DNA of 64,000 nt from Pseudacidovorax sp. (GTDB lineage Bacteria; Pseudomonadota; Gammaproteobacteria; Burkholderiales; Burkholderiaceae_C). Shown one piece after another: positions 3,703 through 18,797 of the stretch. The stretch lies in the NCBI RefSeq assembly GCF_017991995.1, contig NZ_JAGOPN010000002.1:124001-188000 (forward strand). The letters are read 5' to 3'. Position 1 is the stretch's first letter. Every line of letters starts with the position of its first letter. The notes beneath the pieces are model-generated. The model worked only from the letters and a program-made list of their open reading frames with translations, made no database searches and was not told the origin of the DNA. Position numbers and translations under genes: made by a program.

Positions 3703-5985
3703 TCATTCCGACCGCTGGCCCGACGATGCCGGCTGCCAGCGGCGCAGCAGCAGGGCATTGGCCATCACGCTGACGCTCGACGCCGCCATGGCCGCACCGG
3801 CCACCACCGGGCTGAGCAGCCCGAAGGCCGCGAAGGGGATGCCGACCACGTTGTAGGCGAAGGCCCAGAACAGGTTCTGCCGGATCTTGGCCACCGTGCG
3901 GGCCGACAGGTCGAAGGCCTGAGCCACGAGGGCCAGATCGCCGCGCATCAGGGTGATGCCCGCGGCTTCCATGGCCACGTCGGTGCCGTTGGCCATGGCC
4001 AGGCCCACATCGGCCGCGGCCAGCGCAGGTGCGTCGTTGGCGCCGTCGCCCACCATGGCGACCACGCGTGCGCCGCCTTCCTTCAAGGCCGCCACGGCGG
4101 CCGCCTTGTCGGCCGGCAGCACCTGTGCCCGCACGTCCTCGGCCGCGATGCCCACGCGCCGGGCCAGCGCCTGCGCGGCACGCGCGTTGTCGCCGGAGAT
4201 CATCACCACCCGCAGCCCGCGCGCACGCAGGGCCGCCACCGCCTCCGCCGCCCCCGGCTTGGGCTCATCGGTGAAGCCGAGCAATGCCTCGACCGCCTTC
4301 ACCCGCTCACCCTCCGCATCGAGGCTCAGCAGCGCGGACACCGAGGAACCTGTGGACAACAGCGCCTCGACCTTTTCCGGTGGCAAGGCAGCACCCAATT
4401 CCTCGCACCAGCGCAGGCTGGCGAGTGCCCAGGGCGTGCCATCGATCACGGCGCGGATCCCACGGCCCGGCACGGCGCGAACCTCGAGTGCCTCGTCGGG
4501 CGCGAGGTCCCGCGACTTCGCGGCCTCCATCACCGCCCGGGCCAGCGGATGTTCGCTGCCCTGCTGCAGCGTGGCAGCGATGCGCAGCACCTGCCCTTCG
4601 TCCAAGGTCCCCGTCGCGTCGAGCCGGCTGAGCTGCGGCTGTCCGCGCGTCAGCGTGCCCGTCTTGTCGAAGGCCACTGTGTCCACCCGGTGCGCGCGCT
4701 CCAGCGCCGTCGCGTCCTTGATCAGGATGCCGTGGCGTGCGGCGACGCCGGTGCCGGCCATCACCGCCACCGGCGTCGCCAGGCCCAGCGCGCAGGGGCA
4801 GGCGATCACCAGCACGGCCACCGCGTGGATCAGCGCCGTTTCAAGCGGCGCACCGCCCAGGAACAGCCAGCCCAGCAGCGTCAGCAGCGCCAGGCCCAGC
4901 ACGACCGGCACGAAGACGGCAGCCACCCGGTCCACCAGCCGCTGGATGGGCGCCTTGGCGGCTTGCGCGTCCTCCACCAACCGGATGATGCGGGCCAGCA
5001 CGCTTTCCGTGCCGACAGCCAGCACCTCCACCACCAGGCGGCCGGCGCCATTGACCGAACCGCCCGTCAGCCGGCTACCGGCCGACTTGGCCACGGGCAG
5101 AGGTTCGCCCGTGAGCATGGATTCGTCCACTTCCGACTCGCCTTCCAGCACGCGGGAATCGGCCGGGATGCGTTCGCCGGGCCGCACGGCCAGCCGGTCG
5201 CCCACCATCACCTCGGCCAAGGGAACATCGCTTTCCTCGGTGCGGCGACCACGCGACTGCAACAGGTGCGCCGTCTCGGGCCGCAGTTGCTGTAGCGCAC
5301 GGATGGCCGACGTGGCCTGCCGCTTGGCGCGCGCCTCCAGCCACTTGCCCAGCAGCACCAGCGCGATCACGACCGACGAGGCTTCGAAATAGAGATGGGG
5401 TTCGCCGCCGTGCGCGCCATGCAGGCGGGCGCGCCACCAGAGCCACAGCGACAGCCCGAAGGCAGCGCTGGTGCCCAGGGCGACCAGCAGGTCCATGTTG
5501 CCGGTCCCGGCCCGGGCCGCATGCCAGCCTGCGCGGTAGAAGCGCGCGCCCAGCACGAACTGCACGGGCGCCGCCAGCAACAGTTGCAGCCAGGCAGGCA
5601 GCATCCAGTCCAGCCCGAAGGGCATCCCCAGCATGGGCAGCACCAGAGGAAAGGACAGCAGCAGCGCCGCGGCCACCGGGCCGAATCCTGCCCATGGCCC
5701 CACCCCCGCTTCTGCCTGCGTCGCCTCGGCACTGCGCGGTTCGTAGCCGGCCTGCCGGACGGCGCGTCGCAGCCGGAGTGCGGCATCGGCACCGTCGTCG
5801 CCCGACCAACGGACGCGGGCCGATTCCGTCGCCAGGTTCACGCTGGCCTCCTGCACACCCGGCACCTGGCGCAGGGCCTTTTCCACACGGGACACACAGG
5901 AGGCACACGTCATGCCGCCGATGCCGAGGTCCAGCGTCTGCGCGGCCCCCGGGACGGGCGCGGTGTCGATCGAAGATGCATTCAT
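3703..5985 (-). CDS. copA: Copper-exporting P-type ATPase CopA
   Basis: This 760-residue inner-membrane pump exports Cu(I) at the cost of ATP. The order is one N-terminal heavy-metal domain ([15 protein letters not shown], CxxC near residue 30), membrane helices, the actuator loop with TGEP, the metal-channel motif [11 protein letters not shown], the phosphorylation motif FDKTGTLT, the SEHPLARAV motif and the hinge [10 protein letters not shown]. All catalytic residues are present. The start ATG (5983-5985) lies just before the metal domain and only 7 bp from a CueR-type -10 element, so the message is probably leaderless. It is divergent from copZ and cueR, and both directions have CueR boxes. 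Confidence 0.96.
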
Positions 5986-5992
5986 GGACGCA

Positions 5993-6023
5993 AGGCTACG
6001 GCTTGACACGGTGGCAAGGTCAA
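5993..6023 (-). promoter_or_regulatory. CueR-type promoter of copA
   Basis: On the minus strand, -35 ttgacc (6023-6018) and -10 tagcct (5998-5993) are separated by 19 bp. That over-long spacer is typical of MerR-family activated promoters. The dyad ttgacctt...gtgtcaag spans the spacer. The -10 lies 7 bp before the copA ATG, so transcription should begin at or next to the start codon. Confidence 0.75.
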
Positions 6024-6088
6024 GACGTCCTCGCCACGTCGACGGACATCGGAAATGCGCAGCACGGCGCCAAAAGGGTTTTGTTGCC

Positions 6089-6119
6089 TTGACCTTCACA
6101 TCGTGTCAAGGTCCACACT
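6089..6119 (+). promoter_or_regulatory. CueR-type promoter of copZ-cueR
   Basis: A -35 ttgacc at 6089 and a -10 cacact at 6114 are separated by 19 bp. The spacer carries the dyad gacctt-N11-aaggtc (6091-6113). This is the usual MerR/CueR architecture, in which the regulator twists DNA to correct the long spacer. It faces the copZ gene. Confidence 0.8.
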
Positions 6120-6163
6120 CCAGGGTGTTCCCTTTTTTTTAGGCCCTCTCACAGGTTTTTTTC

Positions 6164-6370
6164 ATGACTTTTCCTCTCCACGTCTTCCAGGTCAGCGGAA
6201 TGAGCTGCCAACACTGCGTCCGTGCCGTCACCCAGGCGGTCCAGGATGTCGATCCCGATGCCGAGGTGCGCATCGATCTGCCCGCCGGTCGCGTGGAGGT
6301 GCAGAGCGCCGAAGCCCCCGCCGCACTGCAGGACGCGATCCGCGAAGCGGGCTATACCGTCCAGGGCTGA
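6164..6370 (+). CDS. copZ: Copper chaperone CopZ (heavy-metal-associated domain)
   Basis: This 68-residue cytosolic protein is a single HMA domain. The Cu(I)-binding motif GMSCQHC sits at about residues 12-18, followed by the beta-alpha-beta-beta-alpha-beta pattern ending REAGYTVQG. It should carry Cu(I) to CopA or to the sensor. A CueR-type promoter lies directly upstream and cueR follows 31 bp downstream, so the two are probably co-transcribed. The ATG at 6164 has only a weak ribosome site. Confidence 0.92.
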   Translation: MTFPLHVFQVSGMSCQHCVRAVTQAVQDVDPDAEVRIDLPAGRVEVQSAEAPAALQDAIREAGYTVQG

Positions 6371-6401
6371 CGCCTTTTTCCTCACGGAACCCGGTCCGGC
6401 C

Positions 6402-6848
6402 GTGGCCCCCCGTTCCTCCTCGCCGTCCACAGCGACGGCCCCACCGCTCACCATCGGCCAGGCCGCCGCCCGCTCCGGCGTGTCGGCCCGCATGGTGCGC
6501 CACTACGAGACGCTGGGGCTGCTGCCCGCCGTCTCGCGCACCGACGCCGGTTATCGCCTCTACGGCGATGCCGACGTCCATTCCCTGCGTTTCATCAAGC
6601 GGGCCCGCGACCTGGGCTTCTCCATCGACGAGATCCAGCAGCTCGTCGGCCTCTGGCATGACCGCAGCCGCCCGAGCGCGGCGGTGAAACGCATTGCCCG
6701 CACCCACCTGGACGACCTGGACCGGCGCATTGCCGAACTCCAGGCCATGCGCGGCACGCTCGCCCACCTGGTCCATGGCTGCCGGGGCGACCATCGGCCC
6801 GACTGCCCCATCCTCGAAGACCTGGCAGGAAGCGGCCTACCGCGCTGA
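6402..6848 (+). CDS. cueR: CueR, copper-responsive MerR-family activator
   Basis: This 148-residue protein has an N-terminal winged-helix domain (LTIGQAAARSGVSARMVRHY, then DAGYRLYG) and a dimerisation helix (LDDLDRRIAELQAM). Its C-terminal metal loop is HGCRGDHRPDCPI. The Cys-x7-Cys pair in that loop is the Cu(I) site that defines CueR within the MerR family. The chosen start is a GTG at 6402, about 15 residues before the DNA-binding domain; a start closer to TIGQAA is possible. It should activate both copA and copZ-cueR in response to Cu(I). Confidence 0.93.
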   Translation: MAPRSSSPSTATAPPLTIGQAAARSGVSARMVRHYETLGLLPAVSRTDAGYRLYGDADVHSLRFIKRARDLGFSIDEIQQLVGLWHDRSRPSAAVKRIARTHLDDLDRRIAELQAMRGTLAHLVHGCRGDHRPDCPILEDLAGSGLPR

Positions 6849-7995: not shown

Positions 7996-8799
7996 ATGCC
8001 GAATCCACCCCCTGCCGTTGCCACGGCCCCGACCGCGCCATCGGTCGGGGTTCGGCCGCGCATCCTGGTGGCGGAGGATGAGCCGGGCATCGCCGACACG
8101 GTGCAGTACGTGCTGCGCAGCGACGGCTTTGCGCCGGTGTGGTGTGCCACCGGTGGCGCAGCCCTGGCGGAATTCGCCGCCGAGCCGCCGGCGCTCGCCA
8201 TCCTGGACATCGGCCTGCCCGACATGAACGGCTTCGATCTCTTCCGGCGATTGCAGGCCCTGCCGGGCGCGGCGGACGTGCCCATCGTCTTCCTCACGGC
8301 GCGTACCGACGAGATCGACCGCGTGGTGGGGCTGGAGCTGGGGGCCGACGACTACATCGCCAAGCCCTTTTCGCCGCGCGAACTGGTGGCCCGGGTGCGG
8401 GGCATCCTGCGGCGCAGCCAGCGGGCGGGTCCGGTGCCTTCGATGCCGGTGACGACACTGGCCACGGCGCCGCAGGCACCCGCCCTGCCCTTCGTGGTCG
8501 ACGACGAACGCCTGCAGATCCGCTACTACGGCCGCGTGCTCGAGCTGTCGCGCTACGAATTCGGCCTGCTGCGCCTGCTGGTGCAGCGCCCGGGCCGCGT
8601 GTTCAGCCGCGAGGAGCTGCTCGACCGCGTGTGGGGCGGCGACAGCGAGAGCCTGGACCGCACCGTCGACGCCCACGTCAAGACGGTGCGCGCCAAGCTG
8701 CGCGCGGTGGCGCCCGAGGTCGAGGCCATCCGCACCCACCGCGGCACCGGCTACGCGCTGCACGAAGACCTGCCGCCTTCCACGTCCCTCGTCCCATGA
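7996..8799 (+). CDS. creB: CreB, OmpR-family response regulator
   Basis: This 267-residue protein has an N-terminal receiver domain (RPRILVAEDEPGIADTVQYV, phospho-acceptor Asp71 in LAILDIGLPDMNGF, switch Thr in FLTAR, and Lys in YIAKPFSPRE). A winged-helix domain follows (LSRYEFGLLRLLVQRPGRVF, then DRTVDAHVKTVRAKLR and THRGTGYAL). Receiver and output match E. coli CreB closely. A linker of about 30 residues is longer than in CreB. It overlaps creC by ATGA. The ATG lacks a good ribosome site and sits about 100 bp from the origin region. CreB binds direct repeats TTCAC-N6-TTCAC; one such site is in this window at 13848. Confidence 0.88.
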   Translation: MPNPPPAVATAPTAPSVGVRPRILVAEDEPGIADTVQYVLRSDGFAPVWCATGGAALAEFAAEPPALAILDIGLPDMNGFDLFRRLQALPGAADVPIVFLTARTDEIDRVVGLELGADDYIAKPFSPRELVARVRGILRRSQRAGPVPSMPVTTLATAPQAPALPFVVDDERLQIRYYGRVLELSRYEFGLLRLLVQRPGRVFSREELLDRVWGGDSESLDRTVDAHVKTVRAKLRAVAPEVEAIRTHRGTGYALHEDLPPSTSLVP

Positions 8800-10265
8800 G
8801 GCGTTCGCCGAGCCGGCGCACCCGCATCTTCCTGGCCGTGCTGCTGATCTACGTGGCCGGTATCACCTGGCTACTGTGGCGGGTGGTCGGCGACATCGAT
8901 CCGCGCTACCGCGAATCGGCCGAGGAAGCGCAGGTGGAGATCGCCCAGCTCATGGCCACGCTGGTCGAGCAGGACGTGATCGCCGGCGCCATCGACACCC
9001 GGCGGCTGGAGCCGCTGTTCCGCGCCCTCTATGCGCGCGAGTTCTCGGCCCAGATCTACAACCTGCACAAGCAGAAGGTGGAACTGCGGGTCTACGTCAC
9101 CGACCGCAGCGGCCGGGTGATCTACGACTCCACCGGCCGCGCCGTGGGCGCCGACTATTCGCGCTGGATCGACGTCAGCCGCACGCTGGCAGGCGGCTAT
9201 GGCGCCCGCGCCACGCGCGACGTGGAGTCCGACCCGCTCAGTTCGGTGCTCTATGTGGGGGCGCCCATCCGCTGGGCGGGCGAGATCGTCGGCATGGTGG
9301 GCGTGGGCAAGCCGGTACAGAGCTTCGGCCAGTTCGTGCAGGACGCCCGCCAGCGCGTGATCTGGGTCGGTGCCGGCTCGGCGGCGGCATTGCTGGTGCT
9401 GGCGCTGATCGTCTCGGTGTGGCTGGTGCGCCCCTTCGGCCTCACGGCCGATTACATCCGCTGGCTGCGCACCCAGCGTGGCTTCCATCCGCTGCGCATG
9501 CTGCGCCGTGCCGCCGCCATGGCGCGCGGCGCCGTGCAGGAGATGGGCGACGCCTTCACCGGCCGCAACTACGTGGCCGACTACGTCCAGACCTTCACCC
9601 ACGAGATCAAGAGCCCGCTGTCGGCCATCCGCGGCGCCGCCGAGCTGCTGCAGGAAGCCGGCATGCCGCCCGAGGAGCGCGTGCGCTTCCTGGCCAATAT
9701 CGGCCGCGAGAGCGAGCGCATCCAGCAGCTGGTGGACCGCATGATGGAACTCACGGCCCTGGAGACGCGCCGCGTGCTCGACCAGGTGCAGCCCGTGGCC
9801 CTGGGCGCCCTGCTGCGTGAGGCCGCCCAGGGCGTGGCGCCGGCCGCCGCGCGCCGTGGCGTCGTGATCGACGTGCAGGGCCTGCGCGAGGACCTGGGCG
9901 AGGTGCATGCCGACGGCGACCCGCTGCTGCTGCGACAGGCCGTGGGCAACCTGCTGGACAACGCCATCGACTTCTCGCCCGAGGGCGGCACCGTGCGGCT
10001 CAGCCTGCGGCTGCAGGGCCGGCGCGGCGTGATCGCGGTGCGCGACCAGGGGCCGGGCATCCCTGCCTATGCGCAGGCGCAGGTCTTCCAGAAGTTCTAT
10101 TCGCTGGCGCGGCCGCACAGCCAGAAGAAGAGCACCGGCCTGGGCCTCGCTTTCGTGCGCGAGATCGCGGCGCTGCACGGTGGCAGCATCGCGCTCGGCA
10201 ATGCGGAAGGCGGTGGCGCGCAGGCCACGCTGACCTTGCCGCTGATCAGTGGGCAGCTGCGATGA
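8796..10265 (+). CDS. creC: CreC, sensor histidine kinase
   Basis: This 489-residue inner-membrane kinase has helix 1 at about residues 11-30, a periplasmic CreC-type sensor (VTDRSGRVIYDSTGRAVGAD, YSRWIDVSRTL, GGYGARATRD), and helix 2 at about 188-212. His269 sits in the H-box FTHEIKSPLSAIRGA. ATP-lid motifs are NLLDNAIDFSPEG, DQGPGIP and TGLGLAFVREI. The sensor wording (VGADYSRW, YGARAT) is specific to CreC among kinases. CreC responds to growth state in E. coli and to penicillin-binding-protein inhibition in Pseudomonas. Here PBP1A and an exosortase operon follow. No creD homologue is in the window. Confidence 0.9.
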   Translation: MRRSPSRRTRIFLAVLLIYVAGITWLLWRVVGDIDPRYRESAEEAQVEIAQLMATLVEQDVIAGAIDTRRLEPLFRALYAREFSAQIYNLHKQKVELRVYVTDRSGRVIYDSTGRAVGADYSRWIDVSRTLAGGYGARATRDVESDPLSSVLYVGAPIRWAGEIVGMVGVGKPVQSFGQFVQDARQRVIWVGAGSAAALLVLALIVSVWLVRPFGLTADYIRWLRTQRGFHPLRMLRRAAAMARGAVQEMGDAFTGRNYVADYVQTFTHEIKSPLSAIRGAAELLQEAGMPPEERVRFLANIGRESERIQQLVDRMMELTALETRRVLDQVQPVALGALLREAAQGVAPAAARRGVVIDVQGLREDLGEVHADGDPLLLRQAVGNLLDNAIDFSPEGGTVRLSLRLQGRRGVIAVRDQGPGIPAYAQAQVFQKFYSLARPHSQKKSTGLGLAFVREIAALHGGSIALGNAEGGGAQATLTLPLISGQLR

Positions 10266-10326
10266 GGCGACCCGGCCGATGTCCGCCAACCCGCACCTTC
10301 CCCGCCTGCCGACGATCCACGCCGCC

Positions 10327-10716
10327 ATGACCCCCGACGACCCCCAAGACCTGTGCGCCCACCTGCAACAGCTGGAGGTGGAACTGCACCATCCCGGCAC
10401 GCCCTGCGACGCGGGGCGGCTGGAGGCCCTGCTCCATGCCGATTTCCACGAGGTGGGCCGTTCCGGCCGTCCCTACGACCGCGCCACTGTCGTGCGCTAC
10501 CTGTCGCAGGTGCTGACGCCGCCGGCGGTGCATTCCAGCGACTTCCGGCTGGAACGGCTGGCGCCGGATCTGGCACTGCTCAGCTATCGCTCGGCGCAGC
10601 GGGCGGCCGACGGCGGCCCGTTGTTGCAGACGCTGCGGGTCTCGCTGTGGAAGCGCGAGGGTCTGGCGTGGCAGCTGCGCTATCACCAGGGAACGCCAGC
10701 GGCGTCCGCTGACTGA
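10327..10716 (+). CDS. DUF4440/NTF2-like protein
   Basis: This 129-residue cytosolic protein (MTPDDPQDLCAHLQQLEVEL start) contains DAGRLEALLHADFHEVGRSG and YDRATVVRYLSQ, then a beta sheet ending LWKREGLAWQLRYHQG. That is the SnoaL/DUF4440 cone fold, often found as small binding or isomerase-like domains. No catalytic role can be named. It begins 61 bp after creC on the same strand and could be the third gene of that operon. An upstream ATG at 10279 would add 16 residues; I prefer 10327 because it begins just before the conserved helix. Confidence 0.75.
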   Translation: MTPDDPQDLCAHLQQLEVELHHPGTPCDAGRLEALLHADFHEVGRSGRPYDRATVVRYLSQVLTPPAVHSSDFRLERLAPDLALLSYRSAQRAADGGPLLQTLRVSLWKREGLAWQLRYHQGTPAASAD

Positions 10717-10809
10717 GGGTGGGGGCGCCCCGATTCGGGCCTGCGCCGGCCCGGCATTTGCATGGCCGGAGTCATCCAGGCCCGCGGGCCGCGTTCTCCC
10801 CTCTCTCCC

Positions 10810-11088
10810 ATGCGTGCATCCTCTCCCTCTTCGCGGCCGACCATCGTGGCCGGCATTCCCAAGCTGCCGGCACGCAGTGCCGCCATCGTCGTGCCCCTCC
10901 TGCTGTCGCTGCTGATGAGCGGCGTCGTGTCGGCCATCAGCACGTTGCGCGGCGCGGGCTGGACGCCCGATTTCCTGCATCTCTGGCTGGGCGCCTGGAT
11001 GCTGTCCTGGGCGGTGGCCTTTCCGCTGGTCGTGGTGCTGCTACCCACGGTGCGCCGCCTGACCGGGCTGGTGGTCGACCTGCGCTGA
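10810..11088 (+). CDS. DUF2798 small membrane protein
   Basis: This 92-residue protein has two membrane helices: IVVPLLLSLLMSGVVSAIST and WLGAWMLSWAVAFPLVVVLL, then RRLTGLVV. The pair of helices with a conserved Met-Ser-rich first helix and Trp-Ala-x-x-Phe-Pro in the second matches DUF2798. Function is unknown. It starts about 94 bp after the DUF4440 gene and may extend the creBC transcript. An ATG at 10762 would give a longer, low-complexity N-terminus and is less likely. Confidence 0.75.
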   Translation: MRASSPSSRPTIVAGIPKLPARSAAIVVPLLLSLLMSGVVSAISTLRGAGWTPDFLHLWLGAWMLSWAVAFPLVVVLLPTVRRLTGLVVDLR

Positions 11089-11112
11089 CGACGCAGCCGC
11101 GTGCCATGAAAA

Positions 11113-11132
11113 AACCCGGCCGAGGCCGGGTT
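11113..11132 (-). terminator. Intrinsic terminator of mrcA
   Basis: The stem aacccggc / gccgggtt has a cgag loop. On the minus strand it is followed by a run of T (complement of the a-run at 11109-11114), 25 bp after the mrcA stop. It may also act on the convergent DUF2798 transcript. Confidence 0.85.
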
Positions 11133-11157
11133 GTCGGGGCAAGCGGCGCGGGGCGCC

Positions 11158-13611
11158 TCAGCGGAACATGTTCAGGATCCGGTTGCGCTCGTCCGGCTGC
11201 GCAGGCGCTGCAGGTTGCCCAGGCTGGGCTGGCTGGCCGGGCATGGCCGGGATGACCGGCTGGTTGCCCCACGACGGCGCAGGGCCGGTCGTCGGGGCGC
11301 CGCTGTTCACCTCCACCGGCGTGATCGGCGTCAGGGCGGCTTCCACCCCGAGGGATTGCACGCCCTGGCCGTTGGCGTATTCGTCGTACATCCATTCGCC
11401 GCTGGCGTTGGTCACGCCCGGCGGCACGTCCAGCTTGGCCACCGGGACGCCCTTGAGTGCACCCTGCATGTAGCGCGTCCAGGCCGGCAGCGCCAGGCTG
11501 CCGCCGGTCTCGCCGCGCACGCCGAGCTGGCGGGGCGTGTCGTAGCCGATCCAGGCCACGCCCACGCGGGTCGGCTGGAAGCCGGCGAACCAGGCATCGT
11601 GCGAATCGTTGGTGGTGCCCGTCTTGCCGTAGAGGTCGTCGCGGCGCAACGTGCCGTAGGCGCGGCGGGCGGTGCCGTTCTTGACCACGCTGTTCAGCAG
11701 CGTGTCGATCACGAAGGCATTGCGCGCGGGAATGACGCGGCCGGCCTCGTCGGCGGGCTTGGGCGGGGTGTCCTCCAGCACCTGGTCGCGCGCGTCGGTG
11801 ATGCGGGCGATCAGCCGCGGCTCCACCTTCAGGCCGCCGTTGGCGAACACCGAGTACGCCGCGGCCATCTGCAGCGGCGTCACCGAGCCGGCGCCCAGGC
11901 CCATGGTCAGGTACGCGGGATGCTTGTCGGCCGCGAAGCCGAAATGCGTGATCCATTCCTGCGCATAGGCGGGCGTGATGGCGTCCAGCACGCGGATGGT
12001 CACCACGTTCTTCGACTGCTCCAGCGCCTGGCGCAGCGTGATCGGGCCGGCATAGGTGTTGTCGTAATTCTTGGGCTCCCAGGGCGCACCGCCGGTGGCG
12101 GCGGCGTCGAAGGACAGCGGCGCGTCGTTGACGATGGTGGCGGGCGTGAAGCCCTTCTCCAGCGCGGCCGAATAGATGAAGGGCTTGAAGCTGGAGCCCG
12201 GCTGGCGCCAGGCCTGCGTGGCATGGTTGAACTTGTTCTTGTTGAAGTCGAAGCCGCCGACGAGTGCCTTGATGGCACCATCGCGCGGGTCGATGGCCAC
12301 GAAGGCACCTTCGACCTCCGGCAGCTGGGTCACTTCCCAGCTGTTCTGCGGGCCGGTGCGGGCGATGCGCACGATGCTGCCGCGGCGGATGCGCAGCGGC
12401 TCGGCCGCCTTCTCCACCAACCCGCGCTGCACGGCCTGCAGGCCGCGGCCGGTGATCTCGATGCTGTCGCCGTTGGCGCGCACCGCCACCACCTTGCGCG
12501 GGCTGGCCTCCAGCACCACCGCAGCCATCATGCCGCCACTGTCGGGCTTGTCCGAAAGGGCATCGTCCACCGCGCTGTCCAGATCCTGCGCTTCGGCGGG
12601 CAGTTCGACATAGCCTTCCGGACCGCGGTAGGGCTGGCGCTGTTCATAGTCGACGATGGCCTCGTGCAACCCCTCATAGGCCGAGCTCTGGTCGTTGCGC
12701 GCCACCGTGGTGTAGACCTTGAAGCCCTTGGTGTAGGTGTCGTCGCCGTACTTGGCCACCATCTGCTGGCGCACCATCTCGGCCACGTAGTCGGCATGCA
12801 GGCCCGATGGCTCGGCGGCGTCGCGCAGCTTGAGCGGCTCCTGGCGCGCCTTCTCGGCATCGGCCTGGCTCAGGTAGCCGGTCTCGACCATGCGGCTGAT
12901 CACGTACTGCTGGCGGGCCACCGCGCGGCGGGGATTGGCGATCGGGTTGTTGCTGCTGGGCGCCTTGGGCAGGCCGGCCAGCATGGCGGCCTCGGCCACG
13001 GTGATGTCCTGCAGCGGCTTGCCGAAATAGGTCTGGGCCGCGGCGGCAAAGCCGTAGGCGCGGTTGCCCAGGTAGATCTGGTTCAGGTAGATCTCGAGGA
13101 TCTGGTCCTTGGTCAGCTCGTCCTCCAGCCGCCAGGCCAGCAGCGCCTCCTTCAGCTTGCGGGTGAAGGTGCGCTCCGAGCTCAGGAACATGTTGCGCGC
13201 CACCTGCTGGGTGATGGTGGAAGCGCCCTGCCGCACGCCCCCATGCAGTGCGTTGGAGATCACCGCCCGCGTCAGGCCGATGGTGTCGAGTCCGCCATGC
13301 TGGTAGAAGCGCGCGTCCTCGGTGGCCAGCACCGCGTCCTTGAGCACCTTGGGGATCCTGTCGATGGGCACCAGCTGCCGGCGTTCCTCGCCGAACTCGC
13401 CGATCAGGTCGCCGTCGGCGGTGAACACGCGCAGCGGCAGCTTGGGCTGGTAGTTCTGCAGCGTGCTCACGTCGGGAAGCTGGCGCGACATCAGCGCCGC
13501 GGCAATGCCGACGATGGCGGCGCCGCAGACCACCGCGGTGGCACTGCCGATGGCGGTCCACTTGGCGGCTCGGCGCAGGCGGGGATCGGACAGACGGTCT
13601 TTGAAGGACAT
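11158..13611 (-). CDS. mrcA: Penicillin-binding protein 1A, bifunctional glycosyltransferase/transpeptidase
   Basis: This 817-residue class A PBP polymerises and cross-links peptidoglycan in the periplasm. One N-terminal helix (about residues 20-40) anchors it. The glycosyltransferase-51 domain has the catalytic Glu98 in ATEDARFYQHGG and the motifs GASTITQQVARNMFL and LEIYLNQIYLGN. An OB-like insert follows. The transpeptidase has GSSFKPFIY (Ser-x-x-Lys), the Ser-x-Asn motif SKNVVTIR and KTGTTND. The tail is Pro/Gln-rich, ending ERNRILNMF. The ATG at 13609-13611 begins the cytoplasmic tail MSFKDRLSD. It is divergent from the exosortase operon; a hairpin (ccggcggg / cccgccgg, 13636-13671) lies in its leader. 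Confidence 0.96.
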   Translation of the reverse strand: MSFKDRLSDPRLRRAAKWTAIGSATAVVCGAAIVGIAAALMSRQLPDVSTLQNYQPKLPLRVFTADGDLIGEFGEERRQLVPIDRIPKVLKDAVLATEDARFYQHGGLDTIGLTRAVISNALHGGVRQGASTITQQVARNMFLSSERTFTRKLKEALLAWRLEDELTKDQILEIYLNQIYLGNRAYGFAAAAQTYFGKPLQDITVAEAAMLAGLPKAPSSNNPIANPRRAVARQQYVISRMVETGYLSQADAEKARQEPLKLRDAAEPSGLHADYVAEMVRQQMVAKYGDDTYTKGFKVYTTVARNDQSSAYEGLHEAIVDYEQRQPYRGPEGYVELPAEAQDLDSAVDDALSDKPDSGGMMAAVVLEASPRKVVAVRANGDSIEITGRGLQAVQRGLVEKAAEPLRIRRGSIVRIARTGPQNSWEVTQLPEVEGAFVAIDPRDGAIKALVGGFDFNKNKFNHATQAWRQPGSSFKPFIYSAALEKGFTPATIVNDAPLSFDAAATGGAPWEPKNYDNTYAGPITLRQALEQSKNVVTIRVLDAITPAYAQEWITHFGFAADKHPAYLTMGLGAGSVTPLQMAAAYSVFANGGLKVEPRLIARITDARDQVLEDTPPKPADEAGRVIPARNAFVIDTLLNSVVKNGTARRAYGTLRRDDLYGKTGTTNDSHDAWFAGFQPTRVGVAWIGYDTPRQLGVRGETGGSLALPAWTRYMQGALKGVPVAKLDVPPGVTNASGEWMYDEYANGQGVQSLGVEAALTPITPVEVNSGAPTTGPAPSWGNQPVIPAMPGQPAQPGQPAAPAQPDERNRILNMFR

Positions 13612-13847
13612 GGGAAAGAAACAGGAAGAGGTCGGCCGGCGGGAGGGAAGGCGAGCATGCCCGCCCGCCGGAAGGCCGCCGTAACAAGGCGTTGCCTGCA
13701 CGCCGGCAGGCGCGCAAGCCTCGCGCTGTCACGGCAGCCACGCTGTCGGACGGCGGCAGCATTCTCGGTGCGGCGGGTGCCACGCCGTCGGCAGGGCCAT
13801 CGTCGCCGCGGATCTTGAAAGGAGGCTGAAGGGCGCTGCACACGGAC

Positions 13848-13863
13848 TTCACACAGGCTTCAC
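13848..13863 (+). promoter_or_regulatory. cre tag, predicted CreB binding site
   Basis: TTCAC-acaggc-TTCAC is an exact match to the CreB recognition repeat TTCAC-N6-TTCAC. It is 92 bp upstream of the VIT/VWA gene and 236 bp from mrcA, in a 344-bp gap (13612-13955) with no gene. It is oriented toward the exosortase operon. I found no other exact copy in the gene gaps I inspected. Confidence 0.7.
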
Positions 13864-13955
13864 ATGGCGCGTGGGGCTTCATCGGCCCTTCCTTCTGGCT
13901 TCGGATGCCGCGCGGACAGTCCTTCCCATCGCACACACCGAGGAAGGAACCGACC

Positions 13956-16022
13956 ATGAATCCGAACTTGTCCTGGCGCCCCCGGCGCAGTCCCGAAGCC
14001 CGCGGCTGCGGCCTGTGGGCGTTCACGGCGCTGATGGCGCTGGCCGCCTTTGCGTTGCTGGTGTGCCGGCCTGTCCTTGCACAGGAGGCTGGCAACGATG
14101 CCACCGCGAGTCCCTATCTGGTGGTGCAAAGCGACACCCCCGGCACCGACCGCCTGCCCCTCAAGCGCACCGACGTCGACGTGCGCATCGCCGGTGTCAT
14201 CGCCGACGTGCGGGTGACGCAGACCTACCGCAACGAAGGCGAGCGCACGCTGGAGGCGCGCTACGTCTTTCCCGGCTCCACGCGCGCCGCCGTCGGTGGA
14301 ATGAACGTGCGCATCGCCGACCGGCTGATCACCGCGCAGATCCGCGAGAAGCAGCAGGCGCGGCTGGAATACCAGGAAGCGAAGCAGGCCGGCCAGACGG
14401 CTGCGCTGCTCGAGGCCGAGCGGCCCAACGTCTTCCAGATGAACGTGGCCAACATCCGGCCGGGCGACGAGGTGCGTGTGGAACTGCGCTACACCGAGCT
14501 GCTGCTGCCGCAGTCGGGCCGCTACCAGTTCGTCTACCCCACCGTGGTGGGCCCGCGCTACGTGGGCACCGGTGGTGGCGGGGGACCGTGGAGCGCCCAG
14601 CCCACGCTGCCCGCCGGCACGGCCAGTGCCGCGGCCTTCTCGCTCAAGCTGAGCCTCGATGCGCCGCTGCCGCTGGCGGACATCCGTTCGTCCAGCCATG
14701 CGCTGGCCATCCAACCCAGGCCCGACGACCGGCATGCCGCCCTCACCTTGCGCGAGGATGGCCGGCCGCTGGCCAACCGCGACTTCGTGCTCGACTTCGC
14801 CCTCGCCGGTGAGCGCATCCAGTCGGGCCTGATGCTCTATCCGGGCAGCGGGCCGGATGCGGAGAACTTCTTCCTCGCGATGGTCGAGCCGCCGCGCGCC
14901 GTGGCCGCCGAGCGCATCGTGCCGCGCGACTACCTCTTCGTGGTGGACATCTCCGGCTCCATGCACGGCTTTCCGCTGGACACGGCGCGCGTCCTGCTCG
15001 AGCGGCTGATCGGTGGCCTGCGGCCCAGCGACACCTTCAACGTGATGCTGTTCGCCGGCAGCAACCGCATGCTGTCGCCCAGGCCGGTGCCGGCGACACG
15101 GCCCAACATCGAGCGGGCGCTCAGGACGCTCACCGACATCCAGGGCGGCGGCAGCACCGAGCTGATCCCGGTCTTGCGCCAGGCCTATGCCCAGCCCAAG
15201 GCCGAGGGTGTCTCGCGCAGCATCGTGGTGGTGACCGACGGCTACGTCACGGTGGAACGCGAGGCCTTCACGCTGGTGCGCGAGCACCTGGACCAGGCCA
15301 ACCTGTTCGCCTTCGGCATCGGCGCCTCGGTCAACCGGCACCTGATCGAGGGCCTGGCCCGGGCTGGCCGTGGCGAGCCCTTCGTCATCACCGATGAACG
15401 GCAGGCGCCCGAACAGGCAGCACGCTTTCGCCGCATGGTGGAGTCGCCGGTGCTCACCGGCCTGAAGGCGCGCTTCGACGGCCTGGAGGTGTACGACGTG
15501 GAACCGGCCCGGCTGCCCGACGTGCTGGGCGAGCGGCCCGTGGTGCTGTTCGGCAAGTGGCGCGGCACGCCGCGCGGCCAGCTGGTGGTGGAAGGCCGCA
15601 GCGCCGAAGGCCCGTGGCGCCAGGTGCTGCCGGTGGACGCAGGCAGCCTGGCCCCTCAGGCCACGGCCTTGCGCGCCCTGTGGGCCCGCGACCGCATCGC
15701 GGCGCTGGACGACCAGGAGGGCCTGGAAGGCAGCGGCCAGCAGCGCGACGCCATCACCGCGCTGGGGCTCAAGTACAGCCTGCTCACCGCCTACACCAGC
15801 TTCATCGCCGTCGACCAGGTGGTGCGCGGCACGGGCGATGCCGGCACGACGGTCGACCAGCCGCAACCCTTGCCCGAAGGCGTGAGCGAACTCGCGCTGG
15901 GCATGCCGGTGCCCGCCACGCCCGAGCCCGAGACGCTGGGTGCCGTGGCCGTGGCGCTGGGCATGCTCGCCATGCTGCGCCGCCGGCTGCGTCGGCACGA
16001 CGCGCGGCGCATGACCGCCTGA
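13956..16022 (+). CDS. VIT/VWA-domain surface protein with PEP-CTERM-like sorting tail
   Basis: This 688-residue protein carries a signal peptide (hydrophobic residues about 24-42, cut near VLAQEA). A VIT domain follows (VDVRIAGVIADVRVTQTYRN, LEARYVFPGS, RIADRLITAQIREKQQAR). Next is a von Willebrand A domain with the metal site DYLFVVDISGSMHGFPLD and VVTDGYVTVE. The C-terminus is PATPEPETLG, a membrane helix and RRRLRR. That tripartite tail is a PEP-CTERM-like exosortase signal. The exosortase gene follows 17 bp later. A good ribosome site (aggaagga) sets the ATG. I infer it is the single dedicated substrate, exported and processed at the membrane. Its ligand is unknown. Confidence 0.88.
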   Translation: MNPNLSWRPRRSPEARGCGLWAFTALMALAAFALLVCRPVLAQEAGNDATASPYLVVQSDTPGTDRLPLKRTDVDVRIAGVIADVRVTQTYRNEGERTLEARYVFPGSTRAAVGGMNVRIADRLITAQIREKQQARLEYQEAKQAGQTAALLEAERPNVFQMNVANIRPGDEVRVELRYTELLLPQSGRYQFVYPTVVGPRYVGTGGGGGPWSAQPTLPAGTASAAAFSLKLSLDAPLPLADIRSSSHALAIQPRPDDRHAALTLREDGRPLANRDFVLDFALAGERIQSGLMLYPGSGPDAENFFLAMVEPPRAVAAERIVPRDYLFVVDISGSMHGFPLDTARVLLERLIGGLRPSDTFNVMLFAGSNRMLSPRPVPATRPNIERALRTLTDIQGGGSTELIPVLRQAYAQPKAEGVSRSIVVVTDGYVTVEREAFTLVREHLDQANLFAFGIGASVNRHLIEGLARAGRGEPFVITDERQAPEQAARFRRMVESPVLTGLKARFDGLEVYDVEPARLPDVLGERPVVLFGKWRGTPRGQLVVEGRSAEGPWRQVLPVDAGSLAPQATALRALWARDRIAALDDQEGLEGSGQQRDAITALGLKYSLLTAYTSFIAVDQVVRGTGDAGTTVDQPQPLPEGVSELALGMPVPATPEPETLGAVAVALGMLAMLRRRLRRHDARRMTA

Positions 16023-16039
16023 TCGAGGGAGCAACGCCA

Positions 16040-16924
16040 ATGAACCTCGTCGATTGGGCGGGCCGCCATCCCCGCAGCCTGGAGGCGGCGATCCGTCTCG
16101 ACCGCCTGCCGCCTGTGCTGTGGCTGCTGGCCACCGCCCTGGTGCTCTGGCCCACCTGGGGCTGGATGGGCGCCCGCATGCTGGACCGTTCGGACGATCC
16201 GCTGGGCCTGCTGGCACTGGGTGCGCTGGGCCTGTTCGCCTGGCAGGGTCGGCGGTCGCTGCGTGCCTCGCCGCGGCTGGGGCTGCTGTCCGTGGCGGCG
16301 TTCGGCGTGCTGGCCTCTTCGCTGCTGCGGGCCGGCGTTGCGCTGCCGCCGCTGGCCACCGGCCTGCTGGCCGTGCTGGCCCTGGCCTGCGTGCTGCTCG
16401 CCTTTCTGCCCAATGGGCAGCCTGCCCTGCCGGTGCTGGGCCTGGCGGTGCTCGCCCTGCCCCTGCTGTCCTCGCTGCAGTTCTATGCGGGCTATCCGCT
16501 GCGGCTGGTCACGGCCGAGGCGGCGCGCTGGCTGCTGGCGCCGTTCTTCGTCGTCGAGCGTGCCGGCAGCAGCCTGTGGGTCGATGGCCGGCTGGTGATC
16601 GTGGATGCGCCCTGCTCCGGCGTGCAGATGGTGTGGATGGGCTACTTCACCGCCTGCGTGGTGGCGCTGTTCATGACGCGGATGGACGACCGCGCCTTCC
16701 TGCGCCGGCTGCCCGTGGTCGGACTGGTGGTGCTCGGCGGCAATGTGCTGCGCAATGCCCTGCTGGTGGGCCTGGAGGGCGCCGGCCATGCGCCCGGGCC
16801 GCTGCTGCACCAGGCGCTGGGGCTGGCGCTGCTCGCCGTGGTGTGCGGTGCCATCGGGCGGCGGATGCTGCGCGCGGCACCGCAGGGCCTTGCCCTCGGA
16901 AAGGATCGCCATGCGCTGGCCTGA
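16040..16924 (+). CDS. Exosortase (dedicated, VIT-protein associated)
   Basis: This 294-residue polytopic membrane protein has the exosortase catalytic triad: Cys192 in DAPCSGVQM, Arg238 in GNVLRNALL and His257 in LLHQALG. Exosortases are membrane transpeptidases that process PEP-CTERM proteins. About eight helices precede and surround the triad. It sits directly after a gene whose product has a matching C-terminal signal, and no polysaccharide (eps) genes are near. That suggests a one-target system rather than a general one. It overlaps the next gene by 14 bp, so translation is coupled. I do not assign a letter subtype. Confidence 0.88.
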   Translation: MNLVDWAGRHPRSLEAAIRLDRLPPVLWLLATALVLWPTWGWMGARMLDRSDDPLGLLALGALGLFAWQGRRSLRASPRLGLLSVAAFGVLASSLLRAGVALPPLATGLLAVLALACVLLAFLPNGQPALPVLGLAVLALPLLSSLQFYAGYPLRLVTAEAARWLLAPFFVVERAGSSLWVDGRLVIVDAPCSGVQMVWMGYFTACVVALFMTRMDDRAFLRRLPVVGLVVLGGNVLRNALLVGLEGAGHAPGPLLHQALGLALLAVVCGAIGRRMLRAAPQGLALGKDRHALA

Positions 16925-17489
16925 TGTCTTCGCGCCTTCGCCATGGCGCAACCACTTCGCGCACCGGGTGCTGCACAAGCTGGCGTTCGCGCTCGTGCTG
17001 GTGGTGAGCCTGGTGGCCAGCCTCTGGCCGCTGGCGCAGGACGGTGTCGTGCCGTCTTCGTCCCATGCCGCCTCGCCCGAATGGCCCGCCACCTGGGGCG
17101 GCGTGCCGTTGAGGCCGCAGGCGCTGGGCGAGGTGGAAGCCCGCTTCGTCCGCCACTTTCCCGGCCACATCGCCCGCTTCACCGACGGCCGGCAGGTGCT
17201 GGTGATGCGGCAGGTCGAGCGTCCCACGCGCCTGTTGCATCCGGCCGAGGACTGCTGGCGCGCGCTGGGCTACCGCATCCTCCAGGCCCGGCTCGAACAC
17301 GATGCGCGCGGCCGGCTGTGGCGCTGCTTCCACGCCGAGCGCGCGGGGAGCAGCACCCAGCGCGTGTGCGAGCGCATTGAGGATGCCGCCGGCCGATCTT
17401 TCACCGACACTTCCGCCTGGTACTGGGCCAGCTGGCGCACGAGCGCCGCCGGTCCCTGGACGGCGGTGACCGTGGTCTCGCCGCCATGA
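16911..17489 (+). CDS. EpsI-like exosortase-associated protein
   Basis: This 192-residue protein has one N-terminal membrane helix (LAFALVLVVSLVASLWPL) followed by an extracytoplasmic domain. Motifs VMRQVERPTRLLHPAEDCWR and ALGYRILQARLEHD resemble the EpsI domain that accompanies exosortases, either fused or as a separate gene. EpsI proteins are thought to assist export or sorting, but the reaction is not known. The start overlaps the exosortase gene. The conserved Pro-Glu-x-Cys-like core is PAEDCW here. Confidence 0.75.
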   Translation: MRWPDVFAPSPWRNHFAHRVLHKLAFALVLVVSLVASLWPLAQDGVVPSSSHAASPEWPATWGGVPLRPQALGEVEARFVRHFPGHIARFTDGRQVLVMRQVERPTRLLHPAEDCWRALGYRILQARLEHDARGRLWRCFHAERAGSSTQRVCERIEDAAGRSFTDTSAWYWASWRTSAAGPWTAVTVVSPP

Positions 17490-17516
17490 ACGACACGACA
17501 GACAACGGGACGCGAT

Positions 17517-18797
17517 GTGAACAAGGGGCTGCGTTTGCTGCTGTGGGGCCTGCTGGCCCTGCTGCTGACGGCAGCGGTGGCGGCCGTGGCGGTGGTGCGC
17601 ATCGCGCTCGCGCCGGCCAAGGACGAATGGGCGGTGGACTGGCGCGTCGGTCCCTTCACGGTGCCGGTGGGCGTGCCCACGGTGCTGCGGCTGGCCACCT
17701 CGTCCTGGATCGCGCCGCGACTGGACGGCCGCCGGCTGCAGACGGCCCAGGGCCCCATCGACCTGCACTGGGACGCCCCGCGTACGCAACTCGGCCTGCG
17801 CTGCGCGCCCTGTCGCCTCGGGCTCGCGGCGATGGGCTCGCAGCCGCTTCAGCTGACCGAGCTGCGCCTGACAGCACGGCGCGACGTGGATGTGCTGCGC
17901 GGCGAGCTCGACGCGGTGCCAGCCAGCGCGAGTACCGAAAGCCTGCACGGCCGCTGGCAGGGCCGGCTCACGCAGCGTGACCTGCACATCGATGCCAGCT
18001 TCGACGAGGCACCCATCGCGCGCTGGTATGCCGTGCTGGCCACGGGCCTGCCCGAGCTGGAGCGCGCCCGCATCGGCGGCACGGCGTCGGGCCGCCTGCA
18101 AGTGCAGCTGCCCTCGGGCACGCTGGGGCTGCAGCCGCGCATCAGCGGCTTCACCGTGGAGGGCCTGGGCACCGAGGCGCTGCTGAATGCGCGCAGCCAG
18201 TGCGGGCCTTCCGCCCAGCTCAAGGCCGACAGCTGGCTGGCCCGCGCGGTGATCGCGGCGGAGGACCAGCGCTTCTTCCAGCATCCCGGCTTCGACCTGA
18301 TCGAGCTGCAGGCCGCCTTCGACCGCAACCAGCACAAGGGTGCGGTCGAGCGCGGCGGCAGCACGCTCACCCAGCAGTTGGCCAAGGTGCTGGTGACCGG
18401 CAGCGAGCGCAGCCTGCAGCGCAAGCTGCGCGAATTGCTCTACGCGGTGGACATGGAGCAGCAGCTGGGCAAGGCGCGCATCCTGCAGCTGTACCTGGAC
18501 CATGCGCCCTGGGGCCGGGTCTGCGGCGCCGAGGCGGCAGCGCGCTTCTATTTCGGCCGCCCGGCGGCGCGGCTGGAGCCGGCGCAGGCGGTCTGGCTGG
18601 CGGCCATGCTGCATGCGCCCAGCGCCGCCGCCGAGCGCTGGCAGCGTGAGGGCAGCCTGGACCCGCAGCGCGTGCAGTGGGTGGCCGAGGGCATCCGCGG
18701 CATCAGCCGCGGCCAGCGAGAGGCCCTGCTGCGCAACGTGACGCAGGCGCGCTACCCCTGGCCGGGCAACCTGCCGCCCTCCCCGCCCGCGCGCTGA
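17517..18797 (+). CDS. Membrane-anchored monofunctional peptidoglycan glycosyltransferase (GT51) with extra N-terminal domain
   Basis: This 426-residue protein starts with a GTG (17517). An N-terminal helix is at residues 4-30, a beta-rich domain of about 190 residues follows that I do not recognise, and the C-terminus is a GT51 domain. GT51 motifs are AVIAAEDQRFFQHPGFD (catalytic Glu249), RGGSTLTQQLAKVL, RKLRELLYAVDMEQ and GAEAAARFYFGRPA. There is no transpeptidase domain. It should polymerise glycan strands at the membrane. MtgA is normally about 240 residues, so the N-terminal extension is unusual and may place the enzyme near the exosortase target. It is the last gene of the operon. Confidence 0.85.
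   Translation: MNKGLRLLLWGLLALLLTAAVAAVAVVRIALAPAKDEWAVDWRVGPFTVPVGVPTVLRLATSSWIAPRLDGRRLQTAQGPIDLHWDAPRTQLGLRCAPCRLGLAAMGSQPLQLTELRLTARRDVDVLRGELDAVPASASTESLHGRWQGRLTQRDLHIDASFDEAPIARWYAVLATGLPELERARIGGTASGRLQVQLPSGTLGLQPRISGFTVEGLGTEALLNARSQCGPSAQLKADSWLARAVIAAEDQRFFQHPGFDLIELQAAFDRNQHKGAVERGGSTLTQQLAKVLVTGSERSLQRKLRELLYAVDMEQQLGKARILQLYLDHAPWGRVCGAEAAARFYFGRPAARLEPAQAVWLAAMLHAPSAAAERWQREGSLDPQRVQWVAEGIRGISRGQREALLRNVTQARYPWPGNLPPSPPAR

Follow-up and report, generated by a model that had tools for sequence, protein, structure and literature searches.

A conserved cre tag points to CreBC control of a dedicated exosortase operon in Pseudacidovorax and related Burkholderiales

The stretch analysed here (the window) comprises 64,000 nucleotides of the Pseudacidovorax sp. 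contig NZ_JAGOPN010000002.1 and carries the two-component system genes creB and creC and, downstream of them, a four-gene operon that encodes a VIT/VWA surface protein, exosortase Q (XrtQ), an EpsI-like protein and a GT51 glycosyltransferase (Table 1). This operon, at 13956-18797, probably encodes a dedicated exosortase system that CreBC controls directly. The same proposal had been made in the original prediction, and it is supported here by a conserved gene neighbourhood and by a conserved cre tag, the direct repeat TTCAC-N6-TTCAC, in front of the operon. At the level of sequence, the regulatory link between CreBC and the operon is strong.

The exact tag (TTCACACAGGCTTCAC) lies 92 bp 5' of the ATG at 13956, and, as had been predicted, it is the sole exact copy in the window, where shuffled sequences give an expectation of 0.04. 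The complete window genome of 6.24 Mb holds three exact tags in all. The other two were rejected as regulon members: one falls in the start of an SDR-like frame and one lies near a contig end without a clear downstream gene (names given by eye). The tag is part of a longer two-block array with 11-bp steps between the repeats of each block; a -10-like element follows after a gap of 11 bp. The consensus of 41 tag sites is acTTCACRC[CA]GRCTTCACACA; the flanking bases vary while the tag itself is fixed. When all 5-mers repeated at N6 spacing were tallied, TTCAC came out on top, in 40 of 43 family loci; the second, CTTCA (32 loci), represents the same repeat with the reading shifted back by one base, the opposite orientation gave 0, and spacings other than N6 were restricted to N17 in 7 loci, which reflects triple repeats, and four single cases. 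Additionally, an exact CTTC-N7-CTTC repeat follows 3' of the tag in 30 of 41 VIT promoters versus 0 of 30 creD promoters, the next 4-mer at this period, GCTT (9), being the same repeat shifted. A tandem-box layout is found in promoters activated by PhoB-type regulators, and the two repeat blocks may likewise represent tandem CreB boxes.

The operon and its tag are conserved well beyond the window. Among 299 genomes of the same family, in which exosortase Q was judged by the NF012182 cut-off, 46 carry XrtQ, and inclusion of weaker matches gives 55 genomes in 31 of 141 genera. From this family we fetched 48 stretches, 45 at other over-cut-off XrtQ matches and 3 at weaker ones. A second, named set consists of the best 80 of 227 loci, mostly from Variovorax but also from Xenophilus, Pseudacidovorax, Ottowia, Xylophilus and Ramlibacter, and its closest contigs to the window are Pseudacidovorax ones (97-98% in XrtQ); at least nine named loci probably belong to genomes that are also in the family set, and the two sets therefore cannot be treated as independent. 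The VIT, XrtQ, EpsI-like and GT51 genes follow one another in this order and on a single strand in 44 of the 48 family stretches, the exceptions being one without a GT51 match (L065) and three that lack at least two genes or are cut (L079, L080 and L081), and all four genes are present in 75 of the 80 named loci, which shows that the neighbourhood is not unique to one genome. Of the 45 family stretches with a VIT gene, 33 have a co-oriented creC upstream. Of 43 assessable family loci, 40 have an exact tag 5' of the VIT gene and in its orientation, and the other three (L052, L075 and L077) have a tag with one mismatch; the five loci dropped are L079, L080 and L081, in which VIT was not aligned, L066, which has a 100-N assembly gap, and L072, which is cut by a contig end. 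Of the named loci, four have no assessable upstream region, 75 of the remaining 76 carry the exact tag and the last has one mismatch. The orthologous operons thus share the tag, as the prediction would have it. The tag also remains exact at loci separated from creB by 24-44 kb of the same contig (L041, L068 and L073 of genomes G255, G091 and G267) or with creB on another contig (L063 and L070 of genomes G005 and G193). Exact tags are few per genome, in similar numbers in XrtQ genomes, in 52 of the 81 XrtQ-less CreB genomes and in 50 CreB-less genomes, and the evidence therefore lies in the place of the tag rather than in its number.

When 300 genomes sampled from the order were searched for XrtQ at E 1e-20, 7 gave matches, and four of these 7 lie outside the family. 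One of these four, G476 (L252), has VIT, XrtQ, EpsI and GT51 with an exact tag, and another, G570, has VIT, XrtQ and EpsI with a one-mismatch tag. The other two, G330 and G374, encode an XrtQ-like enzyme of 128 bits, below the cut-off, preceded by a different VIT-domain membrane protein of 823 or 799 residues with a VPEPETW tail; the genes for these proteins (L253:10464-12935 and L254:9996-12395) have an exact tag directly upstream. A CreB over the cut-off is present in all four genomes; in G476 it lies at a distance of about 18 kb, in the others on a different contig.

XrtQ tends to occur together with CreB. At E 1e-70, CreB was found in 44 of the 46 XrtQ genomes, plus G146, identified at locus L058, compared with 84 of the 253 remaining genomes (Fisher p 1.8e-16, kinship ignored); the sole XrtQ genome in which no CreB was found, G104, is 76% complete. 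The CreB tree was built on 54 rows: one side of 42 rows, with support 99/95, holds 39 XrtQ rows and the XrtQ-less G129, G090 and G252, and the other 12 rows comprise 8 XrtQ-less and 4 XrtQ or XrtQ-like ones. The XrtQ label changes 5 times on this tree versus 10.1 in shuffles; the XrtQ-less sample is small and non-random, with 11 rows taken mostly from the CreB matches of highest score. CreC behaves similarly: most XrtQ-linked copies outside Pseudacidovorax are 51-73% identical to the window copy, and 8 of 11 XrtQ-less copies are 38-40% identical. The CreB tree and the CreC identities indicate a distinct CreBC lineage for most of the clade, along with a few separate pairings.

Both the TTCAC-N6-TTCAC tag and its creD target are already known (PMC3660660; PMC4689548). 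In the family of the window, 34 XrtQ-less CreB relatives with creD have the tag before creD in exact form in 26, with one mismatch in 6 and not at all in 2, mostly 75-105 bp from the first matched creD codon. In XrtQ genomes, creD is frequently missing: it is absent from 25 of 44 XrtQ genomes versus 2 of 36 XrtQ-less CreB genomes, the comparison covering 44 of 49 XrtQ genomes (the other five being incomplete; 41 of the 44 over the XrtQ cut-off) and 36 of 81 XrtQ-less CreB genomes. One of the two XrtQ-less genomes without creD, G028, is unlikely to be a true CreB bearer, having a weak CreB match and a reversed gene order. In the window genome itself, CreD (PF06123) gave no match at E 1e-10. Nine XrtQ genomes have creD divergent from the VIT gene with one intergenic tag array that points to VIT, and in 10 XrtQ genomes with creD elsewhere the tag of creD is exact in 4, has one mismatch in 5 and is missing in 1.

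These data bear on what the tag in front of VIT belongs to. It could be the creD tag, the VIT operon having merely landed beside creBC and creD; creD is the textbook target of the tag (PMC4689548), and the nine genomes with a shared intergenic array fit such an origin. We consider this improbable, because in those nine genomes the tag faces VIT in the way in which it faces creD elsewhere, because the tag persists without creD, in the window genome too, and far from creBC, and because the second repeat pair of the VIT promoters is missing from every creD promoter of the comparison. Many OmpR-family regulators bind direct repeats at about 11-bp steps, and another OmpR/PhoB-type regulator might in principle read the TTCAC repeats in place of CreB. 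We give this little credence as well, since the motif is the known CreB tag (PMC3660660), since it precedes creD in the same family, and since nearly all XrtQ genomes possess CreB and creC so often lies upstream of VIT. Shared ancestry within a few related genera, devoid of functional meaning, would fit the origin of most matches in one family, the predominance of Variovorax in the named set and the neglect of kinship in the Fisher tests. It is nevertheless very improbable given a tag that stays fixed while its neighbouring bases vary, the spread of XrtQ over so many genera, the presence of the operon with an exact tag in another family (G476) and the retention of the tag without creBC linkage.

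The sign of the control is a more serious question. Repression of the operon by CreBC, with the VIT protein made when CreBC is quiet, is an unlikely but real alternative to activation: in S. maltophilia CreBC lowers creD promoter activity (PMC4689548), so the sign may be reversed here too. On the other side, creD is activated in E. coli, P. aeruginosa and Aeromonas (PMC4689548; PMC2654508), and the end of the array so close to the -10-like element, as judged by eye, is the layout of an activated promoter. Besides the S. maltophilia case, several observations weigh against direct CreBC control of a dedicated system. The four XrtQ or XrtQ-like genomes G188, G570, G330 and G374 carry a CreB from the other side of the tree, two of them with a one-mismatch tag only (L075 and L251) and two with the different target protein described above. 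No tag was found in any of 29 creB upstream regions (L038, whose stretch begins inside creB, was omitted), and autoregulation of creBC through the tag was rejected. The CreB and creD samples are non-random and ignore kinship. Finally, further PEP-CTERM-like tails exist, with 37 matches at E <= 1 to the profile of the VIT tail in G096 and 8 in the window genome; with such weaker tails in many genomes, VIT may not be the one target of XrtQ, and a single-target claim from the tail profile was therefore dropped.

We nevertheless favour CreBC-controlled sorting of the VIT protein. The window VIT protein scores 411.8 bits against TIGR03788, below the cut-off of 551.65. It has an N-terminal signal-like helix and the DxSxS metal-site residues, of which D331, S333 and S335 are unchanged in all 35 VIT sequences compared. 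Its predicted model (predicted local distance difference test, pLDDT, 72) resembles inter-alpha-inhibitor heavy chain 1 (ITIH1, 6fpy; Foldseek E 1.6e-35), and the nearest solved sequence is PARP4 (E 1.1e-50). The tail consists of three parts, V-P-S/G/A-T-P-E-P, a predicted helix at 660-679 and an Arg cluster (RRR), and is conserved with exceptions such as L078; against NCBIfam, TIGR02595 included, the region 15800-16022 gave no match at E 0.01. A profile built on this tail has the VIT protein as its top match in 39 of 39 genomes, with E from 1e-10 to 3e-28; among the matches listed, all others, numerous in some genomes, start at 4e-7, and the second best in the window genome is at 3e-4.

In XrtQ, the Cys, Arg and His residues (C191, R237 and H256 of alignment A1), which we take to be the exosortase catalytic residues, are invariant in 21 of 21 sequences. 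The EpsI-like protein matches residues 284-451 of the 472 in the exosortase T model (E 1.5e-9). In 45 GT51 sequences, E249, D250, F253, H256 and G258 are invariant or conserved to at least 90%, and they presumably play the roles assigned to the GT51 motifs. The N-terminus of the GT51 protein (AlphaFold2 model, pLDDT 84) has a membrane helix and a beta-rich domain at residues 39-216 (window 17631-18164), which matched nothing in Pfam and, on its own, no PDB fold at E <= 0.001. All 22 PDB fold matches of the GT51 model at this threshold are GT51 or penicillin-binding protein (PBP) entries, and an early guess that the N-terminal domain has an AsmA-like fold was abandoned on this result.

From the conservation and co-occurrence described above, we propose the following working model. 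CreC would sense the state of the envelope or wall and, as in its family, phosphorylate CreB, which would bind the TTCAC repeats at 13837-13863, perhaps together with the degenerate ones at 13877-13902, and would most likely activate the operon promoter. A wall signal is plausible, since in P. aeruginosa the loss of PBP4 activates CreBC and creD (PMC2654508). The VIT/VWA protein would be exported and anchored in the membrane through its C-terminal TPEP-helix-Arg tail, which XrtQ and its EpsI-like helper, by analogy with the exosortase family, may cut, so that the VIT protein is released or attached to the surface, while GT51, judging from its fold and motifs, may polymerise wall glycan alongside. 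Within the clade, the operon would have joined creD as a CreB target and replaced creD in many genomes. A bolder version, in which CreBC of this clade is a wall-damage controller that acts chiefly through the VIT/VWA coat protein, made with its own GT51 and in part of the genomes with a MurA paralogue, rather than through creD, and in which XrtQ joins VIT to the GT51 glycan as a covalent surface layer that answers wall stress, strikes us as speculative and rather unlikely.

The tag also stands before some other genes. The 19 murA paralogues examined score about 300 bits against TIGR01072, below its cut-off. An exact tag lies 70-125 bp upstream in 4 of them (G212, G199, G096 and G105; L243, L229, L343 and L336), a one-mismatch tag in 6 (G282, G119, G035, G129, G192 and G098), of which that of G035, only 24 bp upstream, is doubtful, and neither in 9; a profile search of the window genome gave no such paralogue. 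The creBC locus of G129 (L226:4962-6525) has the order creB-creC-tag-GT51 and lacks VIT, XrtQ and EpsI, which argues that GT51 itself is tied to the tag. G027 has kept creB, creC and the tag together with an XrtQ remnant. A separate observation concerns G197, in which an exact tag with a consensus-like spacer lies 53 bp before a long reading frame (L112:1501-3015). By eye the frame looked alpha-2-macroglobulin-like, an assignment that Pfam and NCBIfam did not confirm for its first 482 residues.

The system resembles several known ones but is distinct from each of them. The proteobacterial dedicated sortase system (TIGR03788, TIGR03785 and TIGR03787) likewise has a VIT/VWA target, which belongs to the same broad family as that of the window, along with a membrane-bound sorting enzyme and a two-component system. 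The window operon, however, has an exosortase and a TPEP tail instead of a sortase, and CreBC in place of the sortase-linked pair, scoring 132.5 against TIGR03787 (cut-off 335.7) and 96.6 against TIGR03785 (cut-off 612.2). Unlike the window operon, none of 30 sortase-linked VIT genes, taken over the TIGR03788 cut-off from class-wide genomes, has an exact cre tag within 700 bp upstream, and 2 of the 30 have one with one mismatch. The PEP-CTERM/EpsH (XrtA) system with PrsK/PrsR also joins a sorting enzyme, an upstream cis element and a two-component system, yet PrsR is of the sigma-54 type with sites before many targets (PMC1569441), whereas CreB is of the OmpR type and its direct repeat stands before one operon. 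The XrtN/TIGR04477 and MSEP-CTERM/TIGR04286 systems likewise have a dedicated exosortase with a VIT-domain target, but the window VIT protein matches neither model at E 0.001; the two distant Burkholderiales targets (L253 and L254) are weakly similar to them (114.6 and 106.1 bits versus 250). With creBCD/blrAB the window shares the regulator pair and the tag before the target, and differs in that the target is the VIT-XrtQ-EpsI-GT51 operon and CreD is unmatched in its genome. A CreB-like biofilm operon of Burkholderia is reported to have no Comamonadaceae orthologues (PMC5192318).

Literature searches, which covered mostly non-subscription papers, found no link between CreBC and an exosortase, none between an exosortase and a VIT domain, nothing on exosortase Q (XrtQ returned unrelated papers only) and nothing on XrtN, XrtK or MSEP-CTERM with an exosortase. 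The link proposed here bears on the purpose of CreBC and on the role of CreD, both of which are unsettled: a lineage that keeps the regulator and its site and swaps or adds the effector suggests a shared envelope task, for the testing of which a narrow gene set can now be named. To our knowledge, little functional work has been done on exosortases as a class. For one of them, the present analysis supplies a defined route of control, an obvious single substrate and a partner of the GT51 type, which opens its cleavage reaction and acceptor to study through a single regulator switch.

Table 1. Features of the creBC-exosortase locus (window coordinates)
Feature	Position	Strand	Support or remark
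creB, OmpR-type response regulator	7996-8799	+	NF008296 307.6 bits (cut-off 273); Response_reg, Trans_reg_C
creC, sensor histidine kinase, start approximate	about 8778-10265	+	NF008312 551.7 bits (cut-off 356)
DUF4440 gene between creC and PBP1A	10249-10716		
PBP1A	11158-13701	-	
Predicted CreB site, half-sites TGCAC 13837, TTCAC 13848, TTCAC 13859	13837-13863	+	exact tag at 13848-13863
Second, degenerate repeat block, CTTC 13877/13888/13899, possible second CreB box	13877-13902	+	
-10-like element GGACAGT	13914-13920	+	spotted by eye; similar elements by eye in other listed promoters
VIT/VWA surface protein, 688 aa, sorting tail VPATPEPETLGAVAVALGMLAMLRRRLRR	13956-16022	+	Pfam VIT, VWA
xrtQ, exosortase Q	16040-16924	+	NF012182 366.8 bits (cut-off 270)
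EpsI-like exosortase-associated protein	16911-17489	+	C-terminal part of exosortase T model
GT51 peptidoglycan glycosyltransferase	17517-18797	+	Pfam Transgly PF00912 148.9 bits

The genes creB and creC and the four operon genes lie where the original prediction had placed them. The prediction had also placed PBP1A after creBC on the opposite strand; its order and strand are right, but a DUF4440 gene intervenes, which, searched by its own sequence, occurs in only 4 of the 80 named loci. PBP1A did not hold up as a part of the system: it adjoins in only 6 of the 48 family stretches, despite 70 of the 80 named, mostly Variovorax, loci, and we therefore regard it as a local neighbour and rejected it as a component. 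Elsewhere in the window, at 3703-6845, a heavy-metal P-type ATPase gene (TIGR01525, TIGR01511) is divergent from a gene for a CueR-type regulator (TIGR02044 159.9, cut-off 147.4), an ordinary copper pair.

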